From Sphaerobacter thermophilus DSM 20745 (lineage in GTDB: Bacteria > Chloroflexota > Chloroflexia > Thermomicrobiales > Thermomicrobiaceae): DNA of 64,000 nt. Shown piece by piece: positions 32,461-49,320 of the stretch (the stretch's first letter is position 1; each line of letters begins with the position of its first letter). The notes beneath the pieces were generated by a model, which saw nothing but the letters and a program-made list of their open reading frames with translations, ran no database searches and was not told the DNA's origin. The DNA is taken from contig NC_013524.1 of assembly GCF_000024985.1 (NCBI RefSeq), forward strand, positions 1,116,001 through 1,180,000, in the 5' to 3' direction. A program made the position numbers and the translations under genes.

Positions 32461-32489
32461 GGTTACCGTCTCCTTCCTCACTCATGCAA

Positions 32490-33062
32490 CTATGCAACCG
32501 ACTGCGGTTGATCGGTGATCGTATCGCCGGCACCAGGGGCGCCTGCTTGGGCCGCGGACTGACCCCAGAAGGCGCGTGCCCACTCGCGTTGCACGGCGCG
32601 GGTATCCCAGTGCCAGCCCAGGATGTCGCTGAGCAATTGCGCCCAGTCTATGGGGATCTCGTGTGCCTTAAGCAGGCCGACCGCGGAGCGCAAGTGAGCC
32701 GGCAGGTCGTCGAGGTGGCAGTTGAGCAGCGCGACGAAGCGCTTTTCGATGCTCGGGCTACCGTCCGACGCCATCAGCCGGGCGAAGGACGCACCGAGGT
32801 TGCTGCGCCCCTCATCGTCACGTGGGTGCCAGCTATGCGGATGCAGCGCAAAGAGCCCAGCGACGAGGACGTAGGCGTTCTCCTCCCGCGGCGATGCCGT
32901 GCTTGGCAGCCACGGGAGGACGTAGGGGTAGAGGTCGGCGACCTCGCCGGGCTTCTTGCCCAGCCCGCGACGGAGCGCGGCCAGCGCGCCGCGGTCCTGG
33001 CGGTCGGCGAGTGCCTCCAGCGACGCGATGAAGCGCCGATGTCGGTCAAGCGGCCGGCTCAT
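32490..33062 (-). CDS. cse2: Cse2 (CasB) small Cascade subunit
   Basis: A 190-residue all-helical protein with HRRFIASLEALADRQDRGALAALRRGLGK, LFALHPH and the C-terminal HWDTRAVQREWARAFWG. Two copies line the belly of Cascade and hold the displaced DNA strand. ATG 33062 overlaps the end of cse1 by 17 bases. Confidence 0.94.
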   Translation of the reverse strand: MSRPLDRHRRFIASLEALADRQDRGALAALRRGLGKKPGEVADLYPYVLPWLPSTASPREENAYVLVAGLFALHPHSWHPRDDEGRSNLGASFARLMASDGSPSIEKRFVALLNCHLDDLPAHLRSAVGLLKAHEIPIDWAQLLSDILGWHWDTRAVQREWARAFWGQSAAQAGAPGAGDTITDQPQSVA

Positions 33063-34713
33063 CGGTTTCCTCCTCTCGTGCCGGCAAATAGCCAGTGAGC
33101 ATCTCCCGGAGCAGCCGGTTGAAGGCACGCTCGGCGCGGGCGGCCGCCTTCAGTGCCCGAGCGCTGGAGTCGAGGCTGTGGATCACGCCCCTGAAGGCGA
33201 CTTGTGCTGTGCGCTGGATCTCACGGGTCCAGCGCGCGAGCGGGTCGCCGGCGATATCGCCGCCGAGGTCGCTTACTAGTTGGCTGAACGGCACCGCCAG
33301 CCTCGACCAAAAGACGGCGCTGGGTGCGAGCGACTTGGCGATGCTCCTCACCGTTGTCGGGCTAGGGGTGACAGCGTCGTCCGGCGCAGCCAGGGTCTGA
33401 GCGAAGACGCGCAACGGGCTGGGTAGCTTTCGGGTCTTGCCATCCGCGCCGGTAACCGTGACAACGTCGTTCACCAGGAGGGTGCTGACCCGCTCGGCCA
33501 GCCCCAGCGCCTCTTGAAGCAGCTCGTACCGTTCTCGGTCGTTCAGGAGCGGCGCGGGAAGTGGCAGGCGCTCGTGCCGCCAGAGTGTGACGTTGGCCTG
33601 GTCGGTCACCATGCCGTACAGGTCGAGGGCAAATCGAGCGCGGGATCCCAGCGGCCCTTCGGCGGCCAGACCGGCGACCCAGTCGAGCATCTTCGGCCGG
33701 GCCGACTGGCCGCTTACCGATTGGAACAATGCCAAGCTGTCGCGCCAGAGGGCGCGATCCTCCTGGAAGCCAATGGGGAACCAGGGTGGCACCCCGTCCC
33801 TGGGCTTGAGACTCTTGCGGAAGGCGACCATTGGCTCGTAGTCGGCTGGATTCCAGCCGTCGGGAAACTGCTCGCCCTTCATGATGACTGCATAGCGGAC
33901 GACTGGGGCTGCGTTCCCGTCTGCAGACTCAGGAAGGAGCCGCACGCGCCGGCTCTGCCAGGTCAGCAGATCGACGTAGCCGCTCGGGCGGCGCTCCCGA
34001 GGCGTGGGGTGCTCGTCCCGCTCCCAGGCCGCGCTGTCGTCCGTGAAGTGGAAAGGAAGCCCATCGGCGCCGTTGTAGGCGTGGAGGTTGAGCATCAGCG
34101 TTTGGAACAGGTTGCGACCCTTGACGAGCGCGACCGCGCTGGTGGTCAGCGGGCCGGCCTTGGTGTACTTAGCGACGCTCGCTTCCTCACCGTGCCGACT
34201 CTGATAGGAGATCATGCCGCCGACGTCGAACGCCTGATACGCGACCAGGTATCGGGCGGCCTGGGCGGGTGACAGTGCAGGCGGATCGGTTGCCACGCTG
34301 TGGTCAAACAACGTGAGGTAGTTGCCAAGCATCATCCCGTGAACGATCCCCGCCACCGGCTTCGCGTAGGATGCGTCGACCGCGGGCGTTTGGTAGAAGG
34401 GGTACGTCGGATCGAATAGGTTGAAGCGATTCCGCCAGCGTTCGCAGTAGCGGTCGATCGGATCGGGATCCCAGGAACCGCGCTCCCACAACGCCGCCCA
34501 CTCGTCGATGCTGGCCGGGCCGAAGACGCGGTGCAGGAACGCGAGCAGCAAGCGGTGCAGGCTGACCGTCACCAGTGGCGAGGGATCGACGATCTCGCGC
34601 AACTCGTGTGCGCGGACCAGGACGTCGCGCAGGCTTAGGTCTTCCCAAGCACCGTCCGCGGCCCGCATGCAGGGGATCCACGGGCAATCGAGCAGGTTGA
34701 AGCCATCCGTCAT
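33046..34713 (-). CDS. cse1: Cse1 (CasA) large Cascade subunit
   Basis: A 555-residue protein with the family opening NLLDCPWIPCMRADG-type sequence (FNLLDCPWIPCM) and LVTVSLHRLLLAFLHRVFG. The C-terminal four-helix bundle ends with RAFNRLLREMLTG. Cse1 reads the PAM and recruits Cas3. ATG 34713 follows AGGAGG by four bases; an earlier in-frame start would overlap the region just after cas3. Confidence 0.95.
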   Translation of the reverse strand: MTDGFNLLDCPWIPCMRAADGAWEDLSLRDVLVRAHELREIVDPSPLVTVSLHRLLLAFLHRVFGPASIDEWAALWERGSWDPDPIDRYCERWRNRFNLFDPTYPFYQTPAVDASYAKPVAGIVHGMMLGNYLTLFDHSVATDPPALSPAQAARYLVAYQAFDVGGMISYQSRHGEEASVAKYTKAGPLTTSAVALVKGRNLFQTLMLNLHAYNGADGLPFHFTDDSAAWERDEHPTPRERRPSGYVDLLTWQSRRVRLLPESADGNAAPVVRYAVIMKGEQFPDGWNPADYEPMVAFRKSLKPRDGVPPWFPIGFQEDRALWRDSLALFQSVSGQSARPKMLDWVAGLAAEGPLGSRARFALDLYGMVTDQANVTLWRHERLPLPAPLLNDRERYELLQEALGLAERVSTLLVNDVVTVTGADGKTRKLPSPLRVFAQTLAAPDDAVTPSPTTVRSIAKSLAPSAVFWSRLAVPFSQLVSDLGGDIAGDPLARWTREIQRTAQVAFRGVIHSLDSSARALKAAARAERAFNRLLREMLTGYLPAREEETDEPAA

Positions 34714-34724
34714 ACGACCTCCTC

Positions 34725-37535
34725 TCACTCCACAACCAGTCCTAGTTCCGGATCGAGGCGCAGCGCGTACTTCCCGACCGAGGCACGACCCGAAGAATCA
34801 AGCAGGATGAGCCGCTGGTGCCGCAGCAGGGCGGACTCGCGCCAGGCGGTCGGTGGGTCGGTCGTGAGCAACTCCGGAACGACGCGCCGGTCGCTGAGCG
34901 TCACCGAGCGGGCCAGCAGGCGCCGGGTTAGATTCAGCGACGGTGGCTCCGAGAGATCGATCACCTCTCGGCCGGCGGGGTCGAGGGCCAAGCGCCCGTC
35001 GACGTCGAACAGGCACACGACCGAGACGGACGGCGGGGTGAGCCGCGTCAGGGCCTGGTGTGCCTGGTGGAAGTCGGGAGCGTCCTCGGCGCGGGCGTTA
35101 GCGGTCATCTGCCAGATGAAGCCGCCGGCTCCCGGCCGCTTGATCCAGCGGACGGCAGCCTCGGCCGCGTCCTTCTCGGCTAGCTCCTCATAACGCTGCC
35201 GTGTCTCCTCCCACGCCGCGCGGACGGTGGGGGGCTCGGTGGCCGGGCAGGGGCGGTCGTCGTAGACCGCCTCGATGAGATCCGGGATCTCGTCGGGGAT
35301 TGCGATGGCGTCACGATCCCGCAGTACCAGCCACGAACGCAGCAGCGCGTGGGCGTCGTAGACCGCCGTCGTGCCGTGGTCGAAGACCGGCACGCCCTCG
35401 GTGATGTGCTCAGGTCGACAGATCCATAGGCGCGGCACTTCCAGGCCGCGCGGGCGGGCATCACGCCGGTGACGGTGGAGTCGACCGGCGCGCTGGAGGA
35501 CGAGGTCGGCCGGGGCCAGATCGGTCACCATCAGATCGAAGTCGAGATCGAGGCTCTGCTCAACGATTTGCGTCGCGATAAGTACCGCTCGCTTCGGGCG
35601 CCTCACCTGGATCGTCCCTTCCTCGGTGGTGACGACACCGCCGGGCTTGCCGAAGCGCCGAAGAGCACGCTGCTCGCGGTGCTGGCGCTCATCGACGAGG
35701 AACCGTGCATGCAGGAGGTCCAGCTCCGGCTCGCCGTCGTCAGCGACGCCTTGGAAGTAGCGCTTGAGGGCCTGGTACACCGCCTGGGCGCGGCCGACTG
35801 TGTTGCAGACCACCACCGCGCAGCCGCCGGGTTCCAGGGCGGCCTCGAGCTGTTTGCCGAGGGGAAATGGCTCTTCGGGTGTCTCCGGGAGTCGGCCATC
35901 GACCCACCCGATCCCGACCGAGCGGGTCGTACGGGCCGAAGCCGGCACGTGCCGACTGTTGATGCCGTTCCGGGTCACCCAGGTGACGCGCGGGTACACG
36001 GCGGAGGGATCCGTGCGTGGCTCCAATGATGGTGTGTCTAACCCGGCGGCGTAGGCCCTGGCGAGTGTGGCGCGGCGGGCATCGGGGAGCGTGGCCGAAA
36101 GCAGGATCACCGGGCTGCCAAGGGCGGCGAGCCACTCCAGCAGCCGCTCGAGCAAGGTTGACATATACGTGTCGTAGGCATGCACCTCATCGATCACCAC
36201 CGTCTTGCCGGCCAGGCCGAAGAGGCGTACGAAGACATGTCGCGTCTGGAGCACTGCCAGTAGCGCTTGGTCGATCGTTCCGACCCCGAAGGGGGAGAGG
36301 AGGCCGCGCTTGCGGTAGGTGAACCATTCGGCTGCGACCACTCCCGAGGCAATCTCGGGATCCTGATCGGCGTCGTCCTCGCGTGGGCTCAGCAGCGCGT
36401 CGGTGCGCTGGCGCAGGGCGGCAAATTCGGCGTTGAGTGCGGCGTGGCCGTGTAGTAGCTGGAGGTTGACCGTCTCCGTGTCGAAGCGCGGGATAAGGTA
36501 GTCGCGCACGCGTCCGAACATCTGGTTACTGGTGGCCTGTGTCGGCATGGCGACGTAGGTGCCCCGATTGCCGCCCACCGCGTTCATGTGATCGGCCAGG
36601 AAGAGTGCTGCCTCAGTCTTCCCTTCGCCCATCGGCGCCTCAACAATGACCAGCGAAGGGTGGGGGAGGTCTCGCGCCAGCTCAATGACAGCCTCTTGGA
36701 GCGCGTTCGGTGTGATGTGCGGGAACAGATCACTGAAGGCGCGAGGTTCGGCGCCGGCCCGGGATTTCAGCCAGGCGAGCCGCGCCATGGCCTGGGCCGC
36801 CTGCCCCTCGGCCTGTCGGTAGTAGTTCCTGAAATCGAGAGAAGAGGCGGCCGCGGCGTCGGCCGCGGCGAACGGGAAGATCAAATCGTCGGAACCGATC
36901 CAGTCAGCAACCGACACGAGTCCCGCTAGCGTCATCGCTGCCGGGTTGTCGATGCCGCGCGGTACCGCGTCACGCGGAACGCCGATATGCGAGGCCAACT
37001 CACGCACGAGTGCCGCCCGGGCCGTGTTCCAGGGCCCGCGGCCCACCGCGACGGTAGGCATGTCGCAAAGATCATGTGCCCGGGGGAAAATCCCGTGGTG
37101 GCCCCCGATGACGGTTCCGAGGCGCCGCGCCAGTTGGTTATCGAGTTGGAACTCAGCGACCAAGATCTCCGGGAGGGTAGCGGCAGTAACGCTCCCGTGC
37201 GGGGTCGCGCGTGGGTCGAGTGGCCGCTGCGGTAGGGGGAAACCGGCGTCGCGAAGGAGCGAGTGGGCAGCGGTCCATGTGAGCTGGAAGGCCGGAGACG
37301 CCTTCCCCAAGTCGTGGAGACCCGTTAGGAAGGCGATCCACGGGCCTGCGTCCGTTTCCGAAAGTCCGAATGCCGCCGCCAGATACCGCCGGACAGCCGG
37401 AGAGAGGACATCGTCCCACATAACCCGCGCCACTAGAGCCACGTCGAGCAGGTGGCAGAGCAGCGGGTGATATGCGGGATCGCCCGGGACCCGCGACCGT
37501 TTTGCCCACAGGAGATGGTTGTGCTGCTCTCCCAT
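34725..37535 (-). CDS. cas3: Cas3 helicase-nuclease
   Basis: A 936-residue protein. The HD nuclease domain has H28 and GLHDLGKASPAF with His74-Asp75, plus GGHHGIFP. The helicase has Walker A EAPMGEGKTEAAL, the DExH box in VVIDEVHAYD, SATLPDARR and motif VI LQRAGRLHRHRR. Cas3 is recruited by Cascade to unwind and degrade target DNA. It is the first gene of the cas operon and both catalytic domains appear intact. The 307-base gap upstream (37536-37842), shared with the divergent oxidoreductase, shows GGAGG before the ATG but no clear consensus promoter. Confidence 0.96.
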   Translation of the reverse strand: MGEQHNHLLWAKRSRVPGDPAYHPLLCHLLDVALVARVMWDDVLSPAVRRYLAAAFGLSETDAGPWIAFLTGLHDLGKASPAFQLTWTAAHSLLRDAGFPLPQRPLDPRATPHGSVTAATLPEILVAEFQLDNQLARRLGTVIGGHHGIFPRAHDLCDMPTVAVGRGPWNTARAALVRELASHIGVPRDAVPRGIDNPAAMTLAGLVSVADWIGSDDLIFPFAAADAAAASSLDFRNYYRQAEGQAAQAMARLAWLKSRAGAEPRAFSDLFPHITPNALQEAVIELARDLPHPSLVIVEAPMGEGKTEAALFLADHMNAVGGNRGTYVAMPTQATSNQMFGRVRDYLIPRFDTETVNLQLLHGHAALNAEFAALRQRTDALLSPREDDADQDPEIASGVVAAEWFTYRKRGLLSPFGVGTIDQALLAVLQTRHVFVRLFGLAGKTVVIDEVHAYDTYMSTLLERLLEWLAALGSPVILLSATLPDARRATLARAYAAGLDTPSLEPRTDPSAVYPRVTWVTRNGINSRHVPASARTTRSVGIGWVDGRLPETPEEPFPLGKQLEAALEPGGCAVVVCNTVGRAQAVYQALKRYFQGVADDGEPELDLLHARFLVDERQHREQRALRRFGKPGGVVTTEEGTIQVRRPKRAVLIATQIVEQSLDLDFDLMVTDLAPADLVLQRAGRLHRHRRDARPRGLEVPRLWICRPEHITEGVPVFDHGTTAVYDAHALLRSWLVLRDRDAIAIPDEIPDLIEAVYDDRPCPATEPPTVRAAWEETRQRYEELAEKDAAEAAVRWIKRPGAGGFIWQMTANARAEDAPDFHQAHQALTRLTPPSVSVVCLFDVDGRLALDPAGREVIDLSEPPSLNLTRRLLARSVTLSDRRVVPELLTTDPPTAWRESALLRHQRLILLDSSGRASVGKYALRLDPELGLVVE

Positions 37536-37842
37536 CTCAGTTCATCCTCCGTCCCACCGCCGACAGTCACCACTGGCTTGCCGATAAGCTGTAACACTAC
37601 AACCGTAGCTGCCGCTCGGGAAGGCAGTCGTTCCCGTGCATCGACCTGTTCCCGCTGCTCGACCTGCAAAGGATGGGAAGATCATACCGTTCTGCAGGAT
37701 TATGCACATGGCGCTCATATTCCGGGGAGGTTGTCAGGCTGTGGCCGTGGACAGTGCCCCGTCACCGATGCTTCGGATCGGTCATAATGGCTCCGCGTGG
37801 GCAGCGACTGGCGCGGAGTGATTGCAGGAGAGGGGGCATGAG

Positions 37843-38631
37843 ATGGATCTGGGGCTGACCGGGAAGGTTGCGCTGGTGCCGGCGGCGAGCTCGGGATTGG
37901 GCCGGGCGGTGGCGCTGGCGCTTGCGCGCGAGGGGGCGCAGGTCGTCGTCAGTAGCCGCAATCAAGCGGCGGTCGATGAGGTGGCGGGGGAGATCCGCGC
38001 CGCGGGCGGAGATGCGCTGGCGGTGGCGGCCGACGTCACCAAGCCGGCCGATCTGGAGCGGCTGGTCCAGGCGGCGATTGATCGCTACGGCGGGATCGAT
38101 GTGCTGATCACCAACGCCGGCGGGCCGCCGGCGGGGACGTTTGACAAGTTCAACGATGCTGACTGGCAGGCGGCATTTGAGCTGACGCTGATGAGCGCGG
38201 TGCGGCTGATCCGGCTGGCGCTCCCGTCGATGCGGGCGCGGGGCGGCGGTGTGATCATCGCCATGACCTCGTCTTCGATCAAGCAGCCGATCCCGAACCT
38301 GCTGCTGTCGAACGTGATGCGGGCTGGAGTCGCGGGGCTGGCCAAGACCCTGGCGGACGAGTTGGCGCCGGACGGCATCCGGGTCAACACCATCGTGCCG
38401 GGGCGCATCGCCACCCCGCGGGTGGCGCAACTCGATCGGGTCAACGCCGAGCGGCAGGGGGTCGACGTTGCAGTGATCGAGCAGCGGGAGACGTCGCGGA
38501 TCCCCATGGGCCGCTACGGCACGCCTGAGGAGTTCGCCGATGCCGTCGCCTTCCTGGCGTCGGAGCGGGCCAGCTACATCACCGGGGCCACGCTCCAGGT
38601 GGACGGCGGGATGATCCGCTCACTCTGGTAG
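37843..38631 (+). CDS. short-chain dehydrogenase/reductase with altered active site
   Basis: A 262-residue protein. The nucleotide-binding turn is VPAASSGLGRAVALALA, a variant of TGxxxGxG; NAGGPPAG matches the NAG motif. Where YxxxK is expected the sequence reads LLLSNVMRAGVAGLAKTLA, so both the catalytic Tyr and Lys are replaced (Ser and Arg). The end, ITGATLQVDGGMIRS, is standard. A subgroup of the family shares this change, so the protein may still reduce a substrate by another mechanism or bind only. ATG 37843 is preceded by a purine-rich tract. Confidence 0.85.
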   Translation: MDLGLTGKVALVPAASSGLGRAVALALAREGAQVVVSSRNQAAVDEVAGEIRAAGGDALAVAADVTKPADLERLVQAAIDRYGGIDVLITNAGGPPAGTFDKFNDADWQAAFELTLMSAVRLIRLALPSMRARGGGVIIAMTSSSIKQPIPNLLLSNVMRAGVAGLAKTLADELAPDGIRVNTIVPGRIATPRVAQLDRVNAERQGVDVAVIEQRETSRIPMGRYGTPEEFADAVAFLASERASYITGATLQVDGGMIRSLW

Positions 38632-38653: not shown

Positions 38654-38669
38654 AAGTACGATCGTACTT
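38654..38669. promoter_or_regulatory. 16-base perfect palindrome, probable operator
   Basis: AAGTACGA followed by its exact complement TCGTACTT, overlapping the first bases of the -35 box of the exopolysaccharide promoter. A half-site AAGTACG recurs at about 38723-38729, downstream of the transcription start. Confidence 0.6.
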
Positions 38670-38696: not shown

Positions 38697-38727
38697 AGTC
38701 GTGGGTGCGTATGGTAGGAATTAAGTA

Positions 38728-38872
38728 CGCGAGCGATGAGAGCCTAGTACCACGCTCGCGAGGGAAAACGAAACGTCGGAGACGTTGAGGCGCAGGCTGT
38801 AATCTGGGCACCTCGCCTGCGCCGAGTCTGAGGTGCAACCGGCCGACCCTTTGGGTGTCGAGCCGGTTTTTT
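38728..38872 (+). ncRNA. leader RNA copy 1 with pseudoknot and intrinsic terminator
   Basis: Stems on the plus strand: CGCGAGCG/CGCTCGCG (38728-38735 with 38753-38760); AACGTC-GGA-GACGTT (38772-38786); and GGCGCAGGC/GCCTGCGCC (38789-38797 with 38815-38823). The 17-base loop of the last stem reads TGTAATCTGG then GCACCTC. The loop's GCACCTC (38808-38814) is exactly complementary to GAGGTGC (38830-38836), giving an H-type pseudoknot. Two bases later a terminator hairpin begins (CCGGC at 38839, GCCGG at 38862-38866, six Ts). The architecture is that of a riboswitch or other cis-acting RNA; the class is not one I recognise. Confidence 0.65.
38839..38872 (+). terminator. intrinsic terminator after leader RNA copy 1
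   Basis: CCGGC/GCCGG with an inner CGACCC/GGGTGTCG stem, followed by TTTTTT. Confidence 0.8.
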
Positions 38873-38950
38873 GCGTTCAGGGAGGAACGTCACCGCGGGC
38901 GTCCGGAAGCGGGCGTAGACAACAGAAGACGAGCGTGAGCGCGGAGGCGA

Positions 38951-39032
38951 TGACGCGCGGGCTGTAATTTGGGCACCTCGCCCGCGCCGAGCCTGGGGTG
39001 CAACCGGCCGGCTAAGACCCTGGCCGGTTTTT
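38951..39032 (+). ncRNA. leader RNA copy 2 with pseudoknot and intrinsic terminator
   Basis: The second copy of the element, starting about 165 bases after the first. The stem is GCGCGGGC/GCCCGCGC (38955-38962 with 38980-38987). Compared with copy 1 an A-T pair has become G-C on both sides, a compensatory change. The 17-base loop is identical except for one C/T. The loop's GCACCTC (38973-38979) can pair with GGGGTGC (38995-39001) using one G-T wobble. The pseudoknot strand is again two bases before a terminator. Conservation of loop and pairing, with drift elsewhere, argues for a selected RNA structure. Confidence 0.65.
39004..39032 (+). terminator. intrinsic terminator after leader RNA copy 2
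   Basis: CCGGCC/GGCCGG around a 12-base loop, then TTTTT. Readthrough would be needed to express the polysaccharide operon, whose first gene starts at 39189. Confidence 0.8.
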
Positions 39033-39188
39033 GTTTGGTCGCGCGTATGTCAGTTTCTGTTATCTACCCTATTTGGTTGATATCGCAACCTACCCGCGGT
39101 GAGAGCGACACGTCGAGGAGGGCGATCCCGAGCGGGATCTGGTGGCTGGAGCGGTGGGTCCCGTGGGCGCCCGGCAGGGAGGGTGATT

Positions 39189-39920
39189 GTGGAGCAGGTT
39201 CGTGCGCGTGGTACACGCGGGCTGGACCGGCTACGCCTGGCGGTGGCTGGGACCGCTGCCTGGGATACGCTGGTCGACCAGCCCTCCGACATCGAGGAAA
39301 CGGTCGCCCTCATCGCGCCGTCGGCCGAGTGGGAGGCATTCCCGCGGAGCTACCGGATCGCTAAGCGGGTGCTCGACATCGTGATTGCCAGCCTCGGTCT
39401 GGTGCTGCTCGCGCCGCTGATGCTGGTGATCGCCGCGATGATCCGGCTGGACTCCCCGGGTCCGGCGATCTTTCGCCAGGAGCGTGTTGGGCAGGGTGGC
39501 CGGCGGTTCCAGATCCTGAAGTTCCGCACGATGGTCAACGGCTGTGACCTGCTGCGCGATGGGCCGCACAAGCGCCCCGACGACGCGCGGGTCACGCGGG
39601 TGGGCCGGCTGCTGCGCCGCACCAGCCTGGACGAGCTGCCGCAGCTCATCAACGTGCTGCGCGGCGAGATGAGCCTAGTCGGGCCACGGCCGGAGCTGCC
39701 GGAGATCGTCGAGGCCCACTACGAGCCGTGGCAGTACCGCCGCTTCCTGGTGCCGCAGGGCATCACCGGCTGGTGGCAGGTGACCGGGCGCGGGAAGAAG
39801 CTGATGTACGAGCACACCGAGGACGACCTCTACTACATCGAGAACCCTTCTTTCCGCTTTGACCTGCTGATCCTGGCCAAGACTGTCGTCGCCGTTCTGC
39901 GCCGGGAGGGAGCGTTCTGA
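39189..39920 (+). CDS. undecaprenyl-phosphate sugar phosphotransferase (priming enzyme)
   Basis: A 243-residue bacterial sugar transferase. One N-terminal membrane segment (VLDIVIASLGLVLLAPLMLVI) precedes the catalytic part: PAIFRQERVGQGGRRFQILKFRTM, RRTSLDELPQLINVLRGEMSLVGPRPELP and ITGWWQVTGRG. It transfers a sugar phosphate onto undecaprenyl phosphate, the first step of exopolysaccharide synthesis. Length matches the short WcaJ/EpsL-like core without the extra five-helix domain. GTG 39189 has GGGAGG six bases upstream; a longer reading frame has no such site. Confidence 0.9.
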   Translation: MEQVRARGTRGLDRLRLAVAGTAAWDTLVDQPSDIEETVALIAPSAEWEAFPRSYRIAKRVLDIVIASLGLVLLAPLMLVIAAMIRLDSPGPAIFRQERVGQGGRRFQILKFRTMVNGCDLLRDGPHKRPDDARVTRVGRLLRRTSLDELPQLINVLRGEMSLVGPRPELPEIVEAHYEPWQYRRFLVPQGITGWWQVTGRGKKLMYEHTEDDLYYIENPSFRFDLLILAKTVVAVLRREGAF

Positions 39921-40768
39921 TGCAGCAGGTTCGTCACGAAGCGACCGCAGTCAAGATCGGGACCGGCTCGCAGGCCGTTGCGGGGGCGCCTCTCCCGCTC
40001 CCGGCCAACCGCAGCCGCCGCATCCTCGGGATGCGCGTCGATGCCACGTCGTACGACGCTGCGGCCGAGCAGGTCATCACCTGGGCCAAGGCTGGGGAGT
40101 CGCGCTACGTCTGTGTCTCCACCGTGCACATGGTCATGGAGGGGCACGACCGCGCCGAGTTCCAGCGGATCGTCAATGCGGCCGATCTGGTCACGCCGGA
40201 CGGCATGCCGCTGGTGTGGGGGCTCAAGCTGCTGGGAATCCCCTCGGCCACCCGGGTGTACGGCCCGGACCTGACGCCGGTGGTGTGCGAGCATGCGGCG
40301 CGTGAGGGGGTGCCGGTCGGCTTTTACGGCGGCACGCCGGAGGTGCTGGACCGCATGATCGCCAACCTCACGGCGCGCTACCCGGGCCTGCAGGTCGTCT
40401 ACCGCCATAGCCCGCCGTTCCGTCCCCTGACGGCCGAGGAGGAGGCGCGGGAGATCGAGGAGATTCGTGCCTCCGGCGCGCGCATCCTCTTCGTCGGCCT
40501 GGGGTGCCCCAAGCAGGAGCAGTGGATGGCGGCGCGGCGGGGCCGGATCGACGCGGTCATGCTGGGTGTCGGAGCCGCCTTCGACTTCCTCGCCGGCGCC
40601 AAGCGGCAGGCGCCGGACCTGATCCAGTCGCTGGGGCTGGAGTGGCTCTTCCGGCTGGCGACCGAGCCCCGGCGACTCTGGCGACGCTACCTCTACAACA
40701 ATCCGCGGTTTGTGGTCTTGTTCGCGGCCCAGGTACTCAAGGGCCGGACTCAATGGGAGGCTCACTAA
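39920..40768 (+). CDS. WecG/TagA/CpsF family glycosyltransferase
   Basis: A 282-residue protein, GT26 type: VSTVHMVMEGHDRAEFQRIV, ADLVTPDGMPLVWGLKLLG, VGFYGGTPEVLDRM and FVGLGCPKQEQWM. These enzymes add the second sugar (often ManNAc or a hexuronate) to the lipid-linked first sugar. It overlaps the previous stop as TGATG and the next start as TAATG. The first 35 residues are low-complexity and may be an extension. Confidence 0.9.
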   Translation: MQQVRHEATAVKIGTGSQAVAGAPLPLPANRSRRILGMRVDATSYDAAAEQVITWAKAGESRYVCVSTVHMVMEGHDRAEFQRIVNAADLVTPDGMPLVWGLKLLGIPSATRVYGPDLTPVVCEHAAREGVPVGFYGGTPEVLDRMIANLTARYPGLQVVYRHSPPFRPLTAEEEAREIEEIRASGARILFVGLGCPKQEQWMAARRGRIDAVMLGVGAAFDFLAGAKRQAPDLIQSLGLEWLFRLATEPRRLWRRYLYNNPRFVVLFAAQVLKGRTQWEAH

Positions 40769-41757
40769 TGGCAACGCGTGTTCTGGTCACCGGCGCTGGT
40801 GGTTTCATCGGTCATCATCTGGTCCGTTACCTGGTCGCCAAGGGGTATTGGGTTCGCGGTGTCGACATCAAGTACCCCGAGTTCGAGTCGTCGCTGGCGC
40901 ACGACTTCCAACTGCTCGACCTGCGCCGGTTCGACAACTGCCTGATCGCCACCAGCGGCGTGGACGAGGTCTACCACCTGGCGGCCGACATGGGTGGCAT
41001 CGGCTATATCACCGGGAACCACGCCAGTATCGCGCACAACGACATCCTGATCAACACCCACATGCTGGAGGCGAGCCGGATCAACGGGGTGCAGCGGTTC
41101 CTCTTCTCGTCCTCGGCCTGCGTCTACCCGGACTACCGGCAGGACGATCCCGACGTCACGCCGCTGCGTGAGGAGGACGCCTACCCGGCGGCGCCGGAGG
41201 AGGGCTACGGCTGGGAGAAGCTCTTCACCGAAAAGCTCTGCCAGTACTACGCCGAGGACTACGGCATGGAGACCCGCGTGGTGCGGTTCCACAACGTCTA
41301 CGGTCCGCTCGGCACCTACGAGGGGGGCAAGGAGAAGGCCCCGGCGGCGCTCTGCCGCAAGATCGCCTTGGCCGAGGACGGCGACGAGATCGAGATCTGG
41401 GGCGATGGTGAGCAGACCCGCTCCTTCATGTACGTCGACGACTGCGTCGAGGGGATCTACCGGCTGATGCGGTCGGACTACCGCCACCCGCTGAATCTTG
41501 GGACTGACCGGCTAGTGACGATCAACGAACTGGTTGACATCATCGCCGATATCGCCGGGAAGCGGATCGTGAAGCGGCACGAGCTCACGAAGCCGCAGGG
41601 TGTCCGCGGGCGCAACAGTGACAACACCCGGCTGCGCCAGGTGCTCGGCTGGGAGCCGCAGATCTCGCTAGAGGAGGGCCTGGCGGTTACCTACCAGTGG
41701 ATCGCCCGGCAGGTCGCCCCGACGCGGCACGGCCAGCGCCGGCTGGTGGCGGTGTAG
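40768..41757 (+). CDS. GDP-mannose 3,5-epimerase-like NAD-dependent sugar epimerase
   Basis: A 329-residue extended SDR. The NAD motif is VTGAGGFIGHHLV. LAADMGGIGYITGNHASIAHN, SSSACVYPDYRQ, EEGYGWEKLFTEKL (catalytic YxxxK), FHNVYGPLGTYEGGKEKAPA and GVRGRNSDNTRLR all parallel plant GDP-mannose 3,5-epimerase closely, more than typical UDP-glucose epimerases. It may make GDP-L-galactose or GDP-gulose for the polysaccharide. ATG 40768 overlaps the preceding stop by one base. Confidence 0.85.
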   Translation: MATRVLVTGAGGFIGHHLVRYLVAKGYWVRGVDIKYPEFESSLAHDFQLLDLRRFDNCLIATSGVDEVYHLAADMGGIGYITGNHASIAHNDILINTHMLEASRINGVQRFLFSSSACVYPDYRQDDPDVTPLREEDAYPAAPEEGYGWEKLFTEKLCQYYAEDYGMETRVVRFHNVYGPLGTYEGGKEKAPAALCRKIALAEDGDEIEIWGDGEQTRSFMYVDDCVEGIYRLMRSDYRHPLNLGTDRLVTINELVDIIADIAGKRIVKRHELTKPQGVRGRNSDNTRLRQVLGWEPQISLEEGLAVTYQWIARQVAPTRHGQRRLVAV

Positions 41758-41770
41758 GAGGGACACGGCG

Positions 41771-42577
41771 GTGATCGTACGACGACTGTTCGTCACTGGT
41801 GGGGCATTGGCGTTGAGCGGCTTGGTCCTGGCGGGGGCTCACGCCGCCCCCAATCTGGGTCGCAAGTGGTACGGTCGCCGCATGTTCCCGCTCATACGGC
41901 GGATCCCCATCCACGGTGCGGTGGCGCTTACGTTCGACGACGGACCCGGCGAAGCGCTGGATGACTTTCTCACAACCTTGGATCGGTACAACGCTCGGGC
42001 GACGTTCTTTGTCGTCGGTGAACAGGTGAAGGCGGCACCAGGCCGCGTCCGGGACATCATCGACGCGGGGCATGAGGTGGGCCTGCACTGTTACCACCAC
42101 CGCAACTACCTCCACCGTCCACCGTGGGAGGCCGTCCAGGACCTGGATCGCGCGCAGGCGACGATCGAGGACGCCACGGGGCGACCCATCACGCTCTACC
42201 GCCCGCCACACGGCATGTTCAACCTCGCGACATTCATCGAATCCGGGCGTCGCGGCTGGCACCGTGTGTACTGGCAGCGCCAGGGGTGGGACTGGGAAGC
42301 CAGCGCGACTCCTGAGTCGATCGCGGCGGGGGTTGGGGTGCCCGATCCGGGAGACATCATCTTGCTCCACGACGACGATCGATACAGTGCCCCAGGCTCG
42401 TGGCGACGGACCCTCGCGGCGCTGCCGCGCATCTTGGAGACAGCGAAATCGGCGGGTATGGAGGTCTGTTCGGTTGGCGAACTGCTGGCCCGTGCAGGGG
42501 ATTACGCTCCGCCACGGGCCAGCGCAGCTCGGGCGCAGCGGACCGATGACTCGTACCGAACCGGGCGAGTCTCGTGA
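41771..42577 (+). CDS. polysaccharide deacetylase (NodB homology)
   Basis: A 268-residue protein with a hydrophobic N-terminus (LFVTGGALALSGLVLAGAHA) that may be a signal or anchor. The catalytic domain has VALTFDDGPGEA (metal Asp pair), GHEVGLHCYHHRN (His metal ligands), YRPPHGMF and DIILLHDDD. It probably removes N-acetyl groups from the polysaccharide outside the membrane, or modifies an intermediate. It starts with GTG thirteen bases after the epimerase and its stop overlaps the next gene. Confidence 0.9.
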   Translation: MIVRRLFVTGGALALSGLVLAGAHAAPNLGRKWYGRRMFPLIRRIPIHGAVALTFDDGPGEALDDFLTTLDRYNARATFFVVGEQVKAAPGRVRDIIDAGHEVGLHCYHHRNYLHRPPWEAVQDLDRAQATIEDATGRPITLYRPPHGMFNLATFIESGRRGWHRVYWQRQGWDWEASATPESIAAGVGVPDPGDIILLHDDDRYSAPGSWRRTLAALPRILETAKSAGMEVCSVGELLARAGDYAPPRASAARAQRTDDSYRTGRVS

Positions 42578-43932
42578 TGACGGCCAGGAGTGAAAGTGCT
42601 ACTCGCATGAGAGCGTATGCCGCTGCGCTCACGTGGGCTTATCTATTTCCCGCCGATGCGGCGTTCCATAGCGACGACGATCGCTTGACCCCGGTGTTTC
42701 GTTCGCTCCTAGAGCAGCGAGAACCAAACGGGCGCGATGTCCAGATTGTCTGGGGCTCGTCCAGCGGTCGGCTTCCGCGCCTGGAGGACCGGTACGGACT
42801 CGTCGCGGTTAACTGCCGGGGGATCTCCGCGCGCGACTTGCAAGAGGCTGGATTCACCTATGTGAGACGCCTCGCGGTCGTTCCGAGCCTCGCGAAACCG
42901 CGTTGGTTTGTCCCGCTCGATTCACGGGCAGCGGCGTCGGCAGGCTTTCGTATCCATACCCCGACCAATCGGGTGGGACACGTTAAGTTCAACGCGGTCC
43001 GTGCCGCCGCTCGGCTTGGTCTTCCGGTGTGGTACCGCGACACGATCACCATTGCTCAGCGGGCCGTTCCTCCGATTGAGCAAACGATCCAATCCCTGTT
43101 CCCAGAGTCGGCCCTGCGGCTCACGCTCTCGACCGGGGATCTGGCATGGCCGGATACAGCCCGCGGCCTACGCGTGATGGCGGTGAACCTTGCTGGGGAG
43201 GTGCTGGCTTTCGGGAAGTTCGCTTCCTCGCGTATCACGCAGCAGTGGCTGGAGAATGAAGCGGCGGCGTTGAAGACGCTGACCGCGCGCTTCGGCGAGC
43301 GATGGTCCGGGCCGCGGTTGCTGAGCGCAGGTGAGGTCGATGGCACCTTCGCTCTCTTCCAGACGCCGGTGGAGGGGGCTTTGGTGGGTCCTGAGTTGTC
43401 CTCGGCGCACTGGCGCTTCTTGGCGAGCCTCCAAGACCACAATCGCAAACCGGTCAGCGAGACAGCGCTCGTCCGTACCTTGACCGAGCGCGTCGCCGAT
43501 CTACCGCCCCTCGCATCGATCTTTGATTCGGCTATGGCGACGCTCGCTGGAGTGTCCTTGCCTGTCACGATCACGCACGGTGACTTCGCGCCGTGTAACG
43601 TGCGGCGGGTAGATGGGTCAATCTCGGCATTCGATTGGGAGAACGCCGTACTCGACGGTCTGCCGATGGTGGATGCGGTTACCTATCGCCTTGCTTCCAT
43701 TCCTCGGAACCGTGACACGCCGGCAGAAGTATCGGTACGGCTGATCGACTCGGTCATGCGCGGCCACGGTGAACCGAATGGGTTGAGCCGCGACGTGATC
43801 CGAGCGCTCGCGGTCTTGGCTCTGCTCGCGAACATCTTTCGCAGCATTGATCTGGGGCGTAGCTTCAGCGATCCCGAGGTGACGTGGGTGACGCAGATTG
43901 CTCGCGAGCTTGCGATGGCCACCTCGCTATAA
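42574..43932 (+). CDS. APH-like kinase/phosphotransferase of the polysaccharide operon
   Basis: A 452-residue protein. The C-terminal half has the phosphotransferase catalytic loop ITHGDFAPCNVRR (HGD-x4-N) and metal motif FDWENAVLDGLPMVDAV, like aminoglycoside/choline kinases. The first 200 residues (GLVAVNCRGISARDLQEAG and RFGERW after them) form a region I do not recognise. Such enzymes occasionally occur in surface-polysaccharide operons and may phosphorylate a sugar or lipid intermediate. The start is GTG 42574 or ATG 42577, both overlapping the deacetylase stop. Confidence 0.7.
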   Translation: MMTARSESATRMRAYAAALTWAYLFPADAAFHSDDDRLTPVFRSLLEQREPNGRDVQIVWGSSSGRLPRLEDRYGLVAVNCRGISARDLQEAGFTYVRRLAVVPSLAKPRWFVPLDSRAAASAGFRIHTPTNRVGHVKFNAVRAAARLGLPVWYRDTITIAQRAVPPIEQTIQSLFPESALRLTLSTGDLAWPDTARGLRVMAVNLAGEVLAFGKFASSRITQQWLENEAAALKTLTARFGERWSGPRLLSAGEVDGTFALFQTPVEGALVGPELSSAHWRFLASLQDHNRKPVSETALVRTLTERVADLPPLASIFDSAMATLAGVSLPVTITHGDFAPCNVRRVDGSISAFDWENAVLDGLPMVDAVTYRLASIPRNRDTPAEVSVRLIDSVMRGHGEPNGLSRDVIRALAVLALLANIFRSIDLGRSFSDPEVTWVTQIARELAMATSL

Positions 43933-43974
43933 GCCGGTCCTGGCTCTCGACATTAGGTGAGGTGCAACGGCAGG

Positions 43975-45372
43975 ATGACTAGCCTACGCGAACAAGCACT
44001 ACGAGGTGGGGCGTATCTTGCCGTGCGGCAAGGGATCAGCCTGTTCATCAGCCTGGGTGGGGTCCTCCTGCTCACCCGACTCATCGGTCCTGCGAGCTAC
44101 GGTCTCTATGCGGGCTCCCTCGGGATTGTGTCGGTCCTGACCCTGATCGGACGCCTCGGTATCAACGTATTCCTGATTCGTTGTCCGGAGCCGCCTGATC
44201 AGCACATGTATAACCAGGCCACCACCCTGTTGCTGCTCTCCGGGTTGGCCCTGGCTCTCGGGGGCGTAGCCCTCCCACCGCTTTTCGCGGGACGCTTGCT
44301 GAGTCCCGACTTTGTGCCGCCATTGCAGGTCATGGCGGCGGTTTCTCCGATCGCTCTCGTGACTATGCCTGCACTGGCCAAGCTTGAGCGTGACCTTAAT
44401 TATCGCGCCGTGGCGCTCATCGAGCTTGCGGGGCAGATCGCGCACTACACCGTGTCCTTGCCCCTGGCAGCACTCGGCGCTGGCGTGTGGAGCCCGGTGG
44501 CAGGCCACGTGACATGGCAGGTTCTCCTCTTGGTATGGGTCTATCGCGCGTCGGGGCTGCGCCCACGTCCTACCTGGTCGAGAGTCCTTGTCGCCGAGAT
44601 GCTCCGTTTCGGGGTGGGGCAAACGACGTCGGTAGGGGTGCGGAGACTCCGGGACCTGATCAATCCGCTCGTCGTTGGACACTTCTTCGGACCCGAGGGC
44701 GTCGGGTACGTCGCCCTCGCGATCCGATTCGGCGAAGTTCTCTCGTTTTTCCGAGAGGTTTCCGGGCGGGTATCAATTGCCGTTCTGGCAAAGGTTCAGG
44801 ACGATTACTCCCGCCTTCGCCGCGGGGTGGAAGAGGCAATGACTATGCAGGTGCTGGCGGTCGGGCCCTTCCTCTGCGGGTTCTCACTTGTCGCCACTCC
44901 GTTGGTCCCACTCCTCTTTGGTGCGCGGTGGGAGCCAGCCCTGGAAGTCTACCCGTTCATCGCGCTGGGCATGCTCGTCAACACGGTGTTCAACGTGCAG
45001 GCATCCGCACTCTACGCGCTGGGACGAAATGGGGACGTGACCCTTTGTTATCTCGTCCACGTGGTCCTTTTCGTACTCGGGGCCTGGATCATGGTGCCAC
45101 GCGTGGGGTTCATCGGGTATGGACTGAGTGAGGTGCTGGCGTTGGGCGGCTATGCTGTCTTGCACTTCCGTATCTCGCGCCTTTTCGCGTTCTCCTATCG
45201 GGAAGTTATGCCGTGGCTGGTCGCGATGATACCTCCGCTGTTTGCCCTGCACTTCGAGCCGGGTGCGCGCCTGCTGTTCTGGTTGCCCCTGATCGTGGTA
45301 GCTCTGCTGCCGCACCAGCGGCAGATGATCGCGCAGTACCTGGGGTACGTCCGCACCTGGAGACTGACGTGA
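43975..45372 (+). CDS. polysaccharide flippase (Wzx/MATE-like)
   Basis: A 465-residue membrane protein with about twelve hydrophobic helices. It opens REQALRGGAYLAVRQGISLF and continues LLLTRLIGPASYGLYAGSLG, the standard Wzx N-terminus; RFGEVLSFFREVSGRVSIAVLAK and PLLFGARWEPALEVYPFIALGM lie in the middle. It would move lipid-linked repeat units across the membrane. The start is uncertain: ATG 43975 fits the family; an in-frame GTG at 43957 is possible. The stop overlaps the next short reading frame as TGATG. Confidence 0.9.
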   Translation: MTSLREQALRGGAYLAVRQGISLFISLGGVLLLTRLIGPASYGLYAGSLGIVSVLTLIGRLGINVFLIRCPEPPDQHMYNQATTLLLLSGLALALGGVALPPLFAGRLLSPDFVPPLQVMAAVSPIALVTMPALAKLERDLNYRAVALIELAGQIAHYTVSLPLAALGAGVWSPVAGHVTWQVLLLVWVYRASGLRPRPTWSRVLVAEMLRFGVGQTTSVGVRRLRDLINPLVVGHFFGPEGVGYVALAIRFGEVLSFFREVSGRVSIAVLAKVQDDYSRLRRGVEEAMTMQVLAVGPFLCGFSLVATPLVPLLFGARWEPALEVYPFIALGMLVNTVFNVQASALYALGRNGDVTLCYLVHVVLFVLGAWIMVPRVGFIGYGLSEVLALGGYAVLHFRISRLFAFSYREVMPWLVAMIPPLFALHFEPGARLLFWLPLIVVALLPHQRQMIAQYLGYVRTWRLT

Positions 45373-45569
45373 TGCTGCTTCCGCTCGTCCGTATCGTCAA
45401 CAACAACTACAACGACGCACGATATCTTGGATGGGTTCTGGCCATCCTGGTGGCACCACGGCATGTCGCATGCTGGATTGGTGACTTAGGGCTCCTCGAC
45501 AGCAAGTCCGTACGGTTCGGTACATTGCCGATCGCGACATTGTGGAGCATATGGGGAGCGGCGCGATGA
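45372..45569 (+). pseudogene. 65-residue remnant of a family 2 glycosyltransferase N-terminus
   Basis: The first 25 residues (PLVRIVNNNYNDARYLGWVL) are recognisably the start of a GT2 glycosyltransferase, comparable with PLVSIIIDNYNYGHLIAEAI in the gene immediately downstream. After that the similarity ends and the frame runs on to a stop at 45567-45569. It has no DDGS motif and cannot be an enzyme. It is, however, coupled at both ends (TGATG with the flippase, ATGA with the next gene), so translation through it may feed the downstream gene. It is probably debris of a duplicated, mostly deleted transferase gene. Confidence 0.6.
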
Positions 45570-46654
45570 CGATGGCAGTCGATCACCGGTCTTCCGTCCC
45601 GCGTCCGAATCATAAAGGAGAGCAGAACGCGGCAGCGCGCACGGGTCCGGAGGTGGTCGCGCCGTTGGTGTCGATCATCATCGACAACTACAACTATGGC
45701 CACCTGATCGCGGAAGCGATCGACAGTGCCCTGGCGCAGACGTACCCGAACATCGAGGTGGTTGTGGTCGACGACGGCTCGACCGACAACTCGCGGGACG
45801 TCATCGCGCGGTACGGGGACCGGGTCGTGCCGGTGTTCAAGGAGAACGGCGGGCAGTGCTCCGCGTTCAACGCGGGCTTCGCCGCCTGCCGGGGCGACAT
45901 CATCACGCTGCTGGACTCAGACGACGTGTGGGACCGGGACAAGGTCGCGCGCGTGGTCGACATTTTCCAGCGACACCCTGAGGTGGGCTGGGTCGGGCAT
46001 AAGCTCACGATCACCGACGAGGTACTGAAGCCGCTGGGGTACACGTTCCCCGACCGGTTGGAGACAGGGCTGGTTCCCCCCGATCCGCACCTCCACCTGG
46101 AGCGGATGGTCAAGGTGGGCGTGTGCGGGTTATCGTTCCGCCGGAGCGCGGGCGAGCGCGCCTTCCCGATTCCCCACGAGGATGGGATCTGGCGGACCTG
46201 CGCGGACCTCTATCTCATGTCGATGTTCGCGATCGAGGGGATCTGGGGCTATACGCTGGACGAGTCCCTCGGTCTGTACCGGCAACACGCAGGGCAGGAG
46301 TTCGCGCAGCCTGACGCGATCGCCCGGCGGATCGAGCGGGATGCGACCATCTCGGAAGCGCTCGCGGAGATCTGGACGCAGCGCACCGGTCGGAGATTCT
46401 ACTCTTCGACCGTCTACAAACACCGGCTCGTGGCAACGGCATTGACGGGCCATTCGATCTGGAGCGGGGAACGGTGGCGGTTGCTGGCGGACGGCATCCG
46501 ATCTGTGGTCGATCTACTCCGTCCGCACCCGCGGCTTGCCGCACGCCAGGGGGCAGCGATCATGCTCGCTTTCGCCTTTCCGAATTGGTGGACGCGCCGG
46601 GTCTTCCGGCGGTTTGGAACGCAGCTTGTGCCGCGGACTGCGGCAACATCATGA
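45566..46654 (+). CDS. family 2 glycosyltransferase
   Basis: A 362-residue cytoplasmic GT-A transferase. LVSIIIDNYNYGHLIAEAIDS, VVVVDDGSTDNSRDVIARYG, NGGQCSAFNAGFAACRGDI and LLDSDDVWDRDKV (DxD metal site) are canonical. The N-terminal 35 residues are disordered in character. The start at 45566 is set by the ATGA overlap with the preceding short frame. It adds a sugar to the lipid-linked repeat unit. Confidence 0.92.
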   Translation: MTMAVDHRSSVPRPNHKGEQNAAARTGPEVVAPLVSIIIDNYNYGHLIAEAIDSALAQTYPNIEVVVVDDGSTDNSRDVIARYGDRVVPVFKENGGQCSAFNAGFAACRGDIITLLDSDDVWDRDKVARVVDIFQRHPEVGWVGHKLTITDEVLKPLGYTFPDRLETGLVPPDPHLHLERMVKVGVCGLSFRRSAGERAFPIPHEDGIWRTCADLYLMSMFAIEGIWGYTLDESLGLYRQHAGQEFAQPDAIARRIERDATISEALAEIWTQRTGRRFYSSTVYKHRLVATALTGHSIWSGERWRLLADGIRSVVDLLRPHPRLAARQGAAIMLAFAFPNWWTRRVFRRFGTQLVPRTAATS

Positions 46655-46669
46655 CGTGGCCCTCGGTTT

Positions 46670-48139
46670 ATGGAGAGGGATACAGAGTTGGGTCACATGA
46701 GGGCCAGTGACGCGATCCACCGCTGGGTAGCGCCGATCATCCTGGCGGCCGCTGCTGTGCTGAGCCTCGTCGCGGCGCTCGTGGCGGCGGCTGTGCCGCT
46801 CCTGGCCGTCATGGCCCTTGCAGCCGCTTCGCTCGCGGTGCTGTTGATGCTCTCGCGGTCGCTGGTCCTGGCGATCCTCCTGATGAGCGGGCTGGTGGAT
46901 CTGCTCACCCCGTTTCGCATCGGCCCCCTCTCGGCCATGGGAGTCACGACCATCCTGTATGCCATCGGGAGCTGGTTTGTCTGGCTGCTCCGCGCGGAGT
47001 TGCCTGCCCGCCTGCGGCGCGCTCTCCTTCCATTCGCGCTGTTCCTGTTCTGGGCGGGGGTCTCGATGGTGCTCTGGTACCGGCCGTCGGTGGAGGGTGT
47101 CCAGAACCTCCTGGTGATCGTGGCGTTCCTCGGGTTGATCGTCCTGACGGCCAACGAGACGCGGCGCTCCCCGGAGTTCATCGACACGCTGGGTAGAGTG
47201 ATGACGGCGGCGACGGTGATTGCCGTCGTCCTTCAGGTGCTGAGCTACCACCTGGGTGTAATGCCGGCCGGCTTCGGAATCCAGGCGCGGAGTTTCGCCC
47301 TCTTCGCACTCGTCGCCCTCGCCTGGCAACTCGGCCGCTGGCGTTCGGGAGATCGCCGCGCCTTCTGGGCCGCTTTGGCGATAGTGGGCCTGATCGGTAT
47401 CAGCCTGTCGCGCACGGCGTTCGTCGTTGGGGTCTTGCTCTTCCCTGCGTCCCATATGCGCCTGCAATCCGTCCGTGGCTGGTTCCAGGCTGGCGTGCTC
47501 GGCGTCGGAGCGGTCGGGCTGCTGTACACCATCGTGTCGCGCGTCGAACCGCTTCGCGCGCGCTTCTTCGAAGGCGATCTGTCGCTGAAGGTGGGCGGGA
47601 TTGCCATCAACGCGATGGGGCGCACTGCCTTCTGGGAGATCACCCTGGCGTCATGGCGGAAGTCGCCTCTGATTGGCAATGGGTCGGGTTCGGCGCAGCC
47701 GCTGATCGAGGCGTACTTCCCGGGGTTGGGGCATCCGCACAACGACTACCTGCGTATCCTGCACGACTACGGCCTGATCGGCCTGGCCATCTGGCTCGTG
47801 GGATACCTTGTGCTCCTCTGGGTAACCTCGTCGGCGTGGAGCCGGTCCGACCCGCAGCGGGACGCGGCCGCCGGCGTTCATCTGGCCGCGTTCCTGGCGC
47901 TCGCGGCGGTGGCGGCGGCGATGGTCACGGACAACACGATGGTCTATGTCTTCGTCATGGCTCCGGCCGGTATCCTCGTCGGTGCCTCGTTCGGCGTAAT
48001 GGAGCGCGATCAGCACAAGGACCCTGCTCCCACCGGATCGACGCTGGGTCCGCCCGGTCTTGAGGATGGCCCCGCCTCCGGAGTTGCCCCTGGGGCAGCC
48101 CCGCCTTCGCTGGTGACGAGGGAATCGTGCGCGTCCTAG
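46670..48139 (+). CDS. O-antigen ligase/polymerase family membrane protein
   Basis: A 489-residue protein with about ten to twelve hydrophobic helices and the large loop ending GHPHNDYLRILHDYGLIG. This is the hallmark of the Wzy_C/O-antigen ligase (RfaL/WaaL) domain, with its conserved His. It probably polymerises or ligates repeat units outside the membrane. The Pro/Gly-rich C-terminal tail (residues 440-489) is not conserved. Start choice is open: ATG 46670 has no ribosome site; TTG 46688, nine bases after GGAGAGG, may be real. Confidence 0.85.
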   Translation: MERDTELGHMRASDAIHRWVAPIILAAAAVLSLVAALVAAAVPLLAVMALAAASLAVLLMLSRSLVLAILLMSGLVDLLTPFRIGPLSAMGVTTILYAIGSWFVWLLRAELPARLRRALLPFALFLFWAGVSMVLWYRPSVEGVQNLLVIVAFLGLIVLTANETRRSPEFIDTLGRVMTAATVIAVVLQVLSYHLGVMPAGFGIQARSFALFALVALAWQLGRWRSGDRRAFWAALAIVGLIGISLSRTAFVVGVLLFPASHMRLQSVRGWFQAGVLGVGAVGLLYTIVSRVEPLRARFFEGDLSLKVGGIAINAMGRTAFWEITLASWRKSPLIGNGSGSAQPLIEAYFPGLGHPHNDYLRILHDYGLIGLAIWLVGYLVLLWVTSSAWSRSDPQRDAAAGVHLAAFLALAAVAAAMVTDNTMVYVFVMAPAGILVGASFGVMERDQHKDPAPTGSTLGPPGLEDGPASGVAPGAAPPSLVTRESCAS

Positions 48140-49320
48140 CGGTCCACAACCGCTATCAGCAGGCTGGCGGCGAGGATGTGGTATTCGCCGCGGAGGTCGA
48201 GCTGCTGCGGAGCTACGGCCACACCGTCACCGAGCTCATCTTCGACAACCGGGAAATCCCCGAGCGGCCCGCGCCGCTCGATGCCGCTCGCCTCGCGCTC
48301 GGCACCGTCTGGTCCCGAAAGGGGGCAGCGCGGGTCCGCGCGATGATCCGGGAGCACCGGCCGGAGGTGGTCCACTTTCACAACATGTTCCCGCTAGTGT
48401 CACCGGCGGCCTACTACGCGGCGCGAGCCGAGCGCTTGGCAGTGGTGCAGACGCTCCACAACTACCGGCTGATCTGCCCGGGCTCGCTGCTCTACCGTGA
48501 CGGCCGTGTCTGCCAGGACTGCGTCGGGCGAGTGGTGCCGTGGCCCGGTGTGCTCCACGGATGCTATCGCGGGTCACGGGCGCAGACGGCCCCCGTCGCA
48601 GCGATGGTAGGTGCCCATCGACTGGGTGGCACCTGGCGGAACCTCGTCGATCGCTACATTGTGCTCAGCCAGGTCGCGCGGGACCAGTTCGTTGCCGGCG
48701 GCTTGCCCGAGGACCGGATCGTGATCAAGCCGAACTTCGTGGAGTTGGACTTGGGGGAACGGTCCTCCCCGGGAGAGTATTACCTCTATGCCGGTCGGCT
48801 CGCGGCCGAAAAGGGCGTGGAGACGCTCCTGCGCGCCTGGACGGAGCACGGGCGGCGTGAGCCGCTCCACATCGTCGGCGACGGCCCGCTGGCGCCGCAG
48901 GTCGAAGCGGCAGCGCAGGCGTCGCCCAGCATTCGCTACCTGGGGCGGTTGGATCGGGCGGCGGTCCTCGAGCAGATGCGCCACGCGCGGGCTTTGATCT
49001 TCCCGTCGGTGTGGTACGAGGGCTTCCCGATGATTCTGGTCGAGGCTCTGGCGTCCGGTCTTCCAGTGATTGCGAGTCGGCTGGGGGCCGCCGCTGAGAT
49101 CATCGAGGATGGGGTGACCGGGTTGCACTTCACGGTCGGCAGCGCTGCCGATCTCGCGGCGAAGGTGGACTGGGTATCCCAGCACACGGAGGCCACTGCG
49201 GAGATGGGGCGGGCGGCGCGCTGCACCTACGAGGCGAAATACACCGGCGCTCGGAACCACGACCAGTTGATGGCGATCTACCAGGCGGCGCTGGAGGAGT
49301 CCCGCCGCTCACATGCGTAG
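48127..49320 (+). CDS. family 4 glycosyltransferase
   Basis: A 397-residue GT-B transferase. The N-terminal domain opens VLAVHNRYQQAGGEDVVFAAE and has VVQTLHNYRLICPGSLLYRDG; the donor-binding domain has YAGRLAAEKGVETLLRAW, HIVGDGPL and FPSVWYEGFPMILVEALASGLPV (E-x7-E). Both domains are intact. GTG 48127 overlaps the preceding gene by 13 bases. It is the last gene of the plus-strand operon. Confidence 0.93.
   Translation: MRVLAVHNRYQQAGGEDVVFAAEVELLRSYGHTVTELIFDNREIPERPAPLDAARLALGTVWSRKGAARVRAMIREHRPEVVHFHNMFPLVSPAAYYAARAERLAVVQTLHNYRLICPGSLLYRDGRVCQDCVGRVVPWPGVLHGCYRGSRAQTAPVAAMVGAHRLGGTWRNLVDRYIVLSQVARDQFVAGGLPEDRIVIKPNFVELDLGERSSPGEYYLYAGRLAAEKGVETLLRAWTEHGRREPLHIVGDGPLAPQVEAAAQASPSIRYLGRLDRAAVLEQMRHARALIFPSVWYEGFPMILVEALASGLPVIASRLGAAAEIIEDGVTGLHFTVGSAADLAAKVDWVSQHTEATAEMGRAARCTYEAKYTGARNHDQLMAIYQAALEESRRSHA

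Follow-up and report, generated by a model that had tools for sequence, protein, structure and literature searches.

In Sphaerobacter thermophilus DSM 20745, the leader that separates an SDR gene (37822-38631) from a cluster of polysaccharide genes (39189-49320) carries one structured element twice, as located by reading the sequence. This raises the question of which RNA class the element belongs to, and how two copies in series might control the genes downstream. Positions are those of the window, i.e., the whole stretch of 64,000 nucleotides that was analyzed (Table 1).

The two copies form a direct repeat (88% identity over 69 nt, spacing 165 nt). In copy 1, a stem of 9 pairs (GGCGCAGGC/GCCTGCGCC) closes a loop of 17 nt (TGTAATCTGGGCACCTC), the end of which (GCACCTC) forms a pseudoknot of 7 pairs with the downstream strand GAGGTGC. 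The stem of copy 2 comprises 8 pairs (GCGCGGGC/GCCCGCGC), its loop (TGTAATTTGGGCACCTC) differs from that of copy 1 by one base, and its pseudoknot strand GGGGTGC forms 7 pairs, including one G-U. Between the stems of the two copies, a compensatory change from A-T to G-C is present. A stem of 8-9 pairs, a 17-base loop with one change, a strand complementary to the last seven bases of the loop and the compensatory change had all been described in the first-pass annotation, and all were recovered in the sequence. Two helices had been missed, P1 (in copy 1, 38775-38779 with 38843-38847) and P2 (3 pairs), so that P1, P2, P3 and the pseudoknot between the loop and the 3' strand were found in both copies; P1 of copy 2 was short, bulged and weaker than that of copy 1.

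On the 3' side of the pseudoknot strand, copy 1 reads AA, then CCGGC...GCCGG and TTTTTT, while copy 2 reads AA, then CCGGCCGG...CTGGCCGG and TTTTTG. The terminator announced earlier was present in both copies, although the gap of two bases placed in front of it was not, as the two A's are themselves the first bases of the stem (AACCGGC/GCCGGTT). The span first assigned to the element (38728-39032) took in a separate upstream hairpin (38728-38761) lying outside either aptamer; this hairpin was dropped as a functional part, as it is not conserved in the more distant member of the genus.

Table 1. Features of the tandem leader and of the genes downstream (positions in the window)
Feature	Position	Strand	Evidence
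c-di-GMP-II aptamer, copy 1	38769..38853	+	RF01786, 73.0 bits, full model 1-84
Copy 1, P3 stem	38789-38797/38815-38823	+	
Copy 1, pseudoknot	38808-38814/38830-38836	+	
Copy 1, pocket AACCG	from 38837	+	
Intrinsic terminator 1	38837..38872 (U-tract 38867-38872)	+	sequence; fold -20.7 kcal/mol at 37 C
c-di-GMP-II aptamer, copy 2	38935..39018	+	RF01786, 66.6 bits, full model 1-84
Copy 2, pseudoknot	38973-38979/38995-39001	+	
Copy 2, pocket AACCG	from 39002	+	
Intrinsic terminator 2	39002..39036	+	terminator scan; fold -17.1 kcal/mol
Sugar transferase (Bac_transf), first gene	39189..39920	+	PF02397, E 1.3e-64
Rest of presumed operon	39920..49320	+	Pfam; tight same-strand spacing

Both copies belong to the known c-di-GMP-II class according to their sequence. 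When the window was scanned against Rfam 15 and weaker matches of the same clan were dropped, three matches exceeded the gathering score, and two of them were the leader copies. Each copy matched RF01786 (gathering score 53.5) over the full model length and without truncation (E = 1.6e-14 and 1e-12, over all Rfam families and the whole window), and clan competition with the variant models GAG and GCG retained RF01786 for both. The first-pass annotation had recognized no known class and suggested an undescribed riboswitch or antitermination RNA, while itself naming a match to a known riboswitch family as grounds for giving this up; such a match was found for both copies. The pseudoknot, the tandem copies and the terminators that had prompted the suggestion are all there, but with matches to a named class that span the full model at E 1e-12 or better, a new RNA class is ruled out and an undescribed one is left with next to no probability. 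What stands of that description is a tandem, pseudoknotted and terminator-coupled regulatory RNA before an exopolysaccharide operon, and its being a riboswitch; its own list of ligands for testing opened with c-di-GMP.

The ligand pocket of this class is known from PDB 3Q3Z, in which the contacts include A69, A70, C71, C72, G73 and A74 (PMC7288161). Residues of the window copies were mapped by alignment and tested at contacts A13, U37, G39, A61, C68, A69, A70, C71, C72 and G73; contacts A14, U60 and A74 are also named, but vary across relatives. All tested bases were found in both copies, except A61. Position 61 is a ligand-contacting A in 46 of the 51 aligned aptamers, and a U in both window copies. 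The near-invariant U63 was also replaced in both, giving a pseudoknot extended to seven pairs. With U61 and a changed U63, the affinity for c-di-GMP may differ and may be tuned.

A variant of the class, with a changed ligand or much weakened binding, would account for two near-invariant residues (A61 and U63) being altered in both copies, and for a U at a ligand contact together with a pseudoknot of 7 instead of 5 pairs; related Rfam variants, GAG and GCG, have been named (PMC12452182). Such a variant is nevertheless quite unlikely, since the core (A69, A70, C71, C72, G73, U37 and G39) is intact, canonical RF01786 scores above the other clan models, and the orthologous copy 2 of another genus member (G401) retains A61 beside the same long pseudoknot. 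It is likewise quite unlikely that the Sphaerobacter doublet represents a retuned c-di-GMP-II subtype, in which U61 and the seven-pair pseudoknot would shift affinity or ligand preference and the thresholds of the copies would differ; if true, the response of the pair would be unlike that of two equal switches.

Elsewhere, a subgroup of c-di-GMP-II aptamers from Sphaerobacteraceae (sites L004 (1501-1584, minus strand), L050, L057, L058 and L059) displayed ACCCGG where most other aligned aptamers have AACCGG, changing contact A70 to C. Of the four members that were aligned, three (L057, L058 and L059) also had the right arm of the hairpin changed to CCGGGU. The members checked lie 5' of genes for secreted surface proteins (WxL, Ig-like repeats, LPKTG-type end), and the ligand specificity of this subgroup may differ.

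Assignment of the leader copies to the c-di-GMP-II class was accompanied by a survey of 400 Chloroflexota genomes, of which 102 held a match to the class and 48 a match above the cut-off. An alignment of 51 Chloroflexota aptamers was tested against the Rfam structure with its pseudoknot, with shuffled and slid controls. Paired cells amounted to 88.8%, versus 67.2% in shuffled and 33-40% in slid controls. Double-sided changes occurred at 19 of 22 pairs, with covariation in all four helices; kinship inflates such counts, yet the slid controls retain kinship and score far lower. The pseudoknot was paired in all 51 aptamers and showed double-sided changes at four of its five pairs.

The position of the terminators bears on how the two riboswitches would work. 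The left arm of each terminator consists of AACCGG, corresponding to aptamer bases 69-74, followed by the 3' strand of P1. Since these are pocket and P1 bases, the bound aptamer and the terminator are expected to be mutually exclusive, which predicts an ON switch where the ligand prevents termination. Because a shuffle test on a single copy was too weak (an overlapping hairpin also arose in 13% of shuffles), it was repeated over relatives: a terminator-like hairpin overlapping the pocket and P1 bases was found at 53 of 56 sites, whereas dinucleotide shuffling of the sequence 3' of the aptamers would give 17.4, where the sites include the two of the window, relatives are not independent, and criteria were somewhat looser than in the single-copy test. 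In two of the six terminators of the genus (copy 2 of G400 and of G401), the left arm is shifted and covers P1, not the pocket A's.

From class membership, structure, terminators, their overlap with the aptamers and conservation, all read from the sequence, we infer ligand binding and the direction of switching. Without ligand, AACCGGC(C) at the 3' end of the aptamer would pair with GCCGGTT and transcription would stop at the U-tract. With c-di-GMP bound, A69, A70, C71, C72 and G73 would be held in the pocket and the 3' strand in P1, blocking the terminator and letting RNA polymerase read through. A tandem OFF switch, with c-di-GMP promoting termination and shutting the operon, finds a precedent in the class I c-di-GMP switches of C. 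difficile, which are OFF, and the direction is not transferable between species (PMC6366702). It is very unlikely here, as the terminator uses up the pocket bases and the 3' strand of P1 and so excludes the bound state, and a separate antiterminator is neither needed nor seen in the unbound fold. In C. difficile, the four switches of class II all act in the ON direction (PMC6366702). The leader thus very probably comprises two complete c-di-GMP-II riboswitches in series, acting as a tandem ON switch for exopolysaccharide synthesis.

Two ON switches in series would approximate an AND gate on one signal, polymerase reaching the sugar transferase and the later polysaccharide genes only when both are bound. 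High c-di-GMP would turn exopolysaccharide synthesis on, with little leak and a response that is somewhat steeper, in line with the 'pseudo-cooperative' scheme for tandem switches (PMC9481103). The steep response proposed at first is reasonable, but would be modest: calculated for two switches that act independently with the same affinity, the 10-90% range narrows from 81-fold to 40-fold. The larger predicted effect is the lower leak, since the leaks of the two terminators multiply. Unequal thresholds of the two copies are possible, because P1 of copy 2 is weaker.

Each of the three genomes examined for the genus had the doublet, with copies 166-173 nt apart. The doublet of G400 has the same SDR gene on its 5' side and, judged from translations, a window-like series of genes on its 3' side (sugar transferase, WecG-type, epimerase, deacetylase, flippase). 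When G000 was compared with the more distant G401, the aptamers were 85-87% identical, versus 41-57% for the region upstream of them, the spacer between them and the sequence leading up to the first gene. A genome of another genus of the family (G385) carried a single copy with a terminator 5' of a sugar transferase and an epimerase (63% and 75% identity to those of the window, respectively). As this single copy precedes orthologous genes, the association of the switch with polysaccharide genes probably predates the doublet. The window copies were 87% alike, versus at most 82% to any copy outside the genus, which suggests duplication within the Sphaerobacter lineage. A third copy in the genome was ruled out as partner of the doublet, being a lone, sub-threshold and variant site on the other replicon.

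In G385, a gene for an HD-domain protein (L061, 357-1346, minus strand; PF13487), possibly a c-di-GMP phosphodiesterase, is oriented divergently from the single riboswitch and its polysaccharide genes. In a groundwater Chloroflexi genome, two c-di-GMP-II aptamers lie one base apart (L034/L048, G121:C17:17629-17800, minus strand) with a terminator only on the second, a possible dual-aptamer, single-platform arrangement. Scanning the whole collection with a DNA pattern for c-di-GMP-II aptamers placed directly side by side gave 13 candidate stretches by pattern alone, of which one was from Chloroflexi.

The genes downstream (39189-49320) are presumed to be co-transcribed as one operon because of their tight spacing on the same strand. 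Behind the sugar transferase, Pfam matches pointed to a WecG/TagA glycosyltransferase, a GDP-mannose-type epimerase, a polysaccharide deacetylase, an APH-like protein (sub-threshold), a flippase, a GT2, a Wzy/O-antigen ligase-like protein and a GT4. Such gene content is typical of a Wzx/Wzy-type exopolysaccharide cluster. The genome (3,993,764 bases in two contigs) held nine GGDEF and three EAL matches, so that c-di-GMP is probably both made and broken down, and c-di-GMP signalling is likely in this organism.

Upstream, a promoter search of the leader returned no consensus sigma-70 site; TATGGTAGGAATTAAGTACGC at 38710-38730 was largely conserved across the three genus members. A perfect palindrome of 14 bases (AGTACGATCGTACT, 38655-38668), 5' of the leader and imperfect in the two other genus members, is a possible protein-binding site. 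Type I CRISPR-Cas genes, identified by eye, occupy the opposite strand further upstream (29778-37535, minus strand; Cas3-like at 34725-37535, then Cascade subunits). Past the operon, a c-di-GMP-I-GGC riboswitch (RF03167, 64.6 bits; 50874-50951, minus strand) lies 5' of a gene for a right-handed beta-helix protein (49363-50781, minus strand), convergent with the polysaccharide operon, so that a class I variant and the class II doublet flank one cluster.

Compared with RF01786 riboswitches in general, the Sphaerobacter copies share the fold, the pseudoknot, the pocket bases, the surface or matrix gene context and a terminator made from the 3' end of the aptamer, but both have U61 and a pseudoknot two pairs longer than usual. 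Enrichment of c-di-GMP switches in tandem arrangements is documented (PMC12452182), and a catalogue of c-di-GMP-II riboswitches from 2022 lists 59 doublets and 9 triplets, mostly from Paraclostridium and relatives and before COG4932 surface anchor genes (PMC9481103). Like those doublets, which are two complete switches of one class in series and expected to be pseudo-cooperative, the present leader holds two full aptamers of the same class, each with its own terminator, an arrangement kept in G400 and G401; it differs in belonging to Sphaerobacter (Chloroflexota) and in preceding a polysaccharide operon, not surface anchor genes. The triple-tandem c-di-GMP-I riboswitch Bc3-5 of Bacillus thuringiensis likewise places several switches of one class in one 5' UTR, but its aptamers are class I and non-homologous to class II (PMC4759541). 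Within the library of papers searched, no relevant report on c-di-GMP switches in Sphaerobacter or Chloroflexota was found. The tandem c-di-GMP-II arrangement is thus already described, and the Sphaerobacter case is a further example, in a phylum and a gene context for which no report was found. It would extend tandem c-di-GMP-II control from mainly surface anchor genes to the synthesis of exopolysaccharide by a thermophilic member of the Chloroflexota, and predicts that matrix production in Sphaerobacter would be switched on by c-di-GMP through the control of transcription termination.
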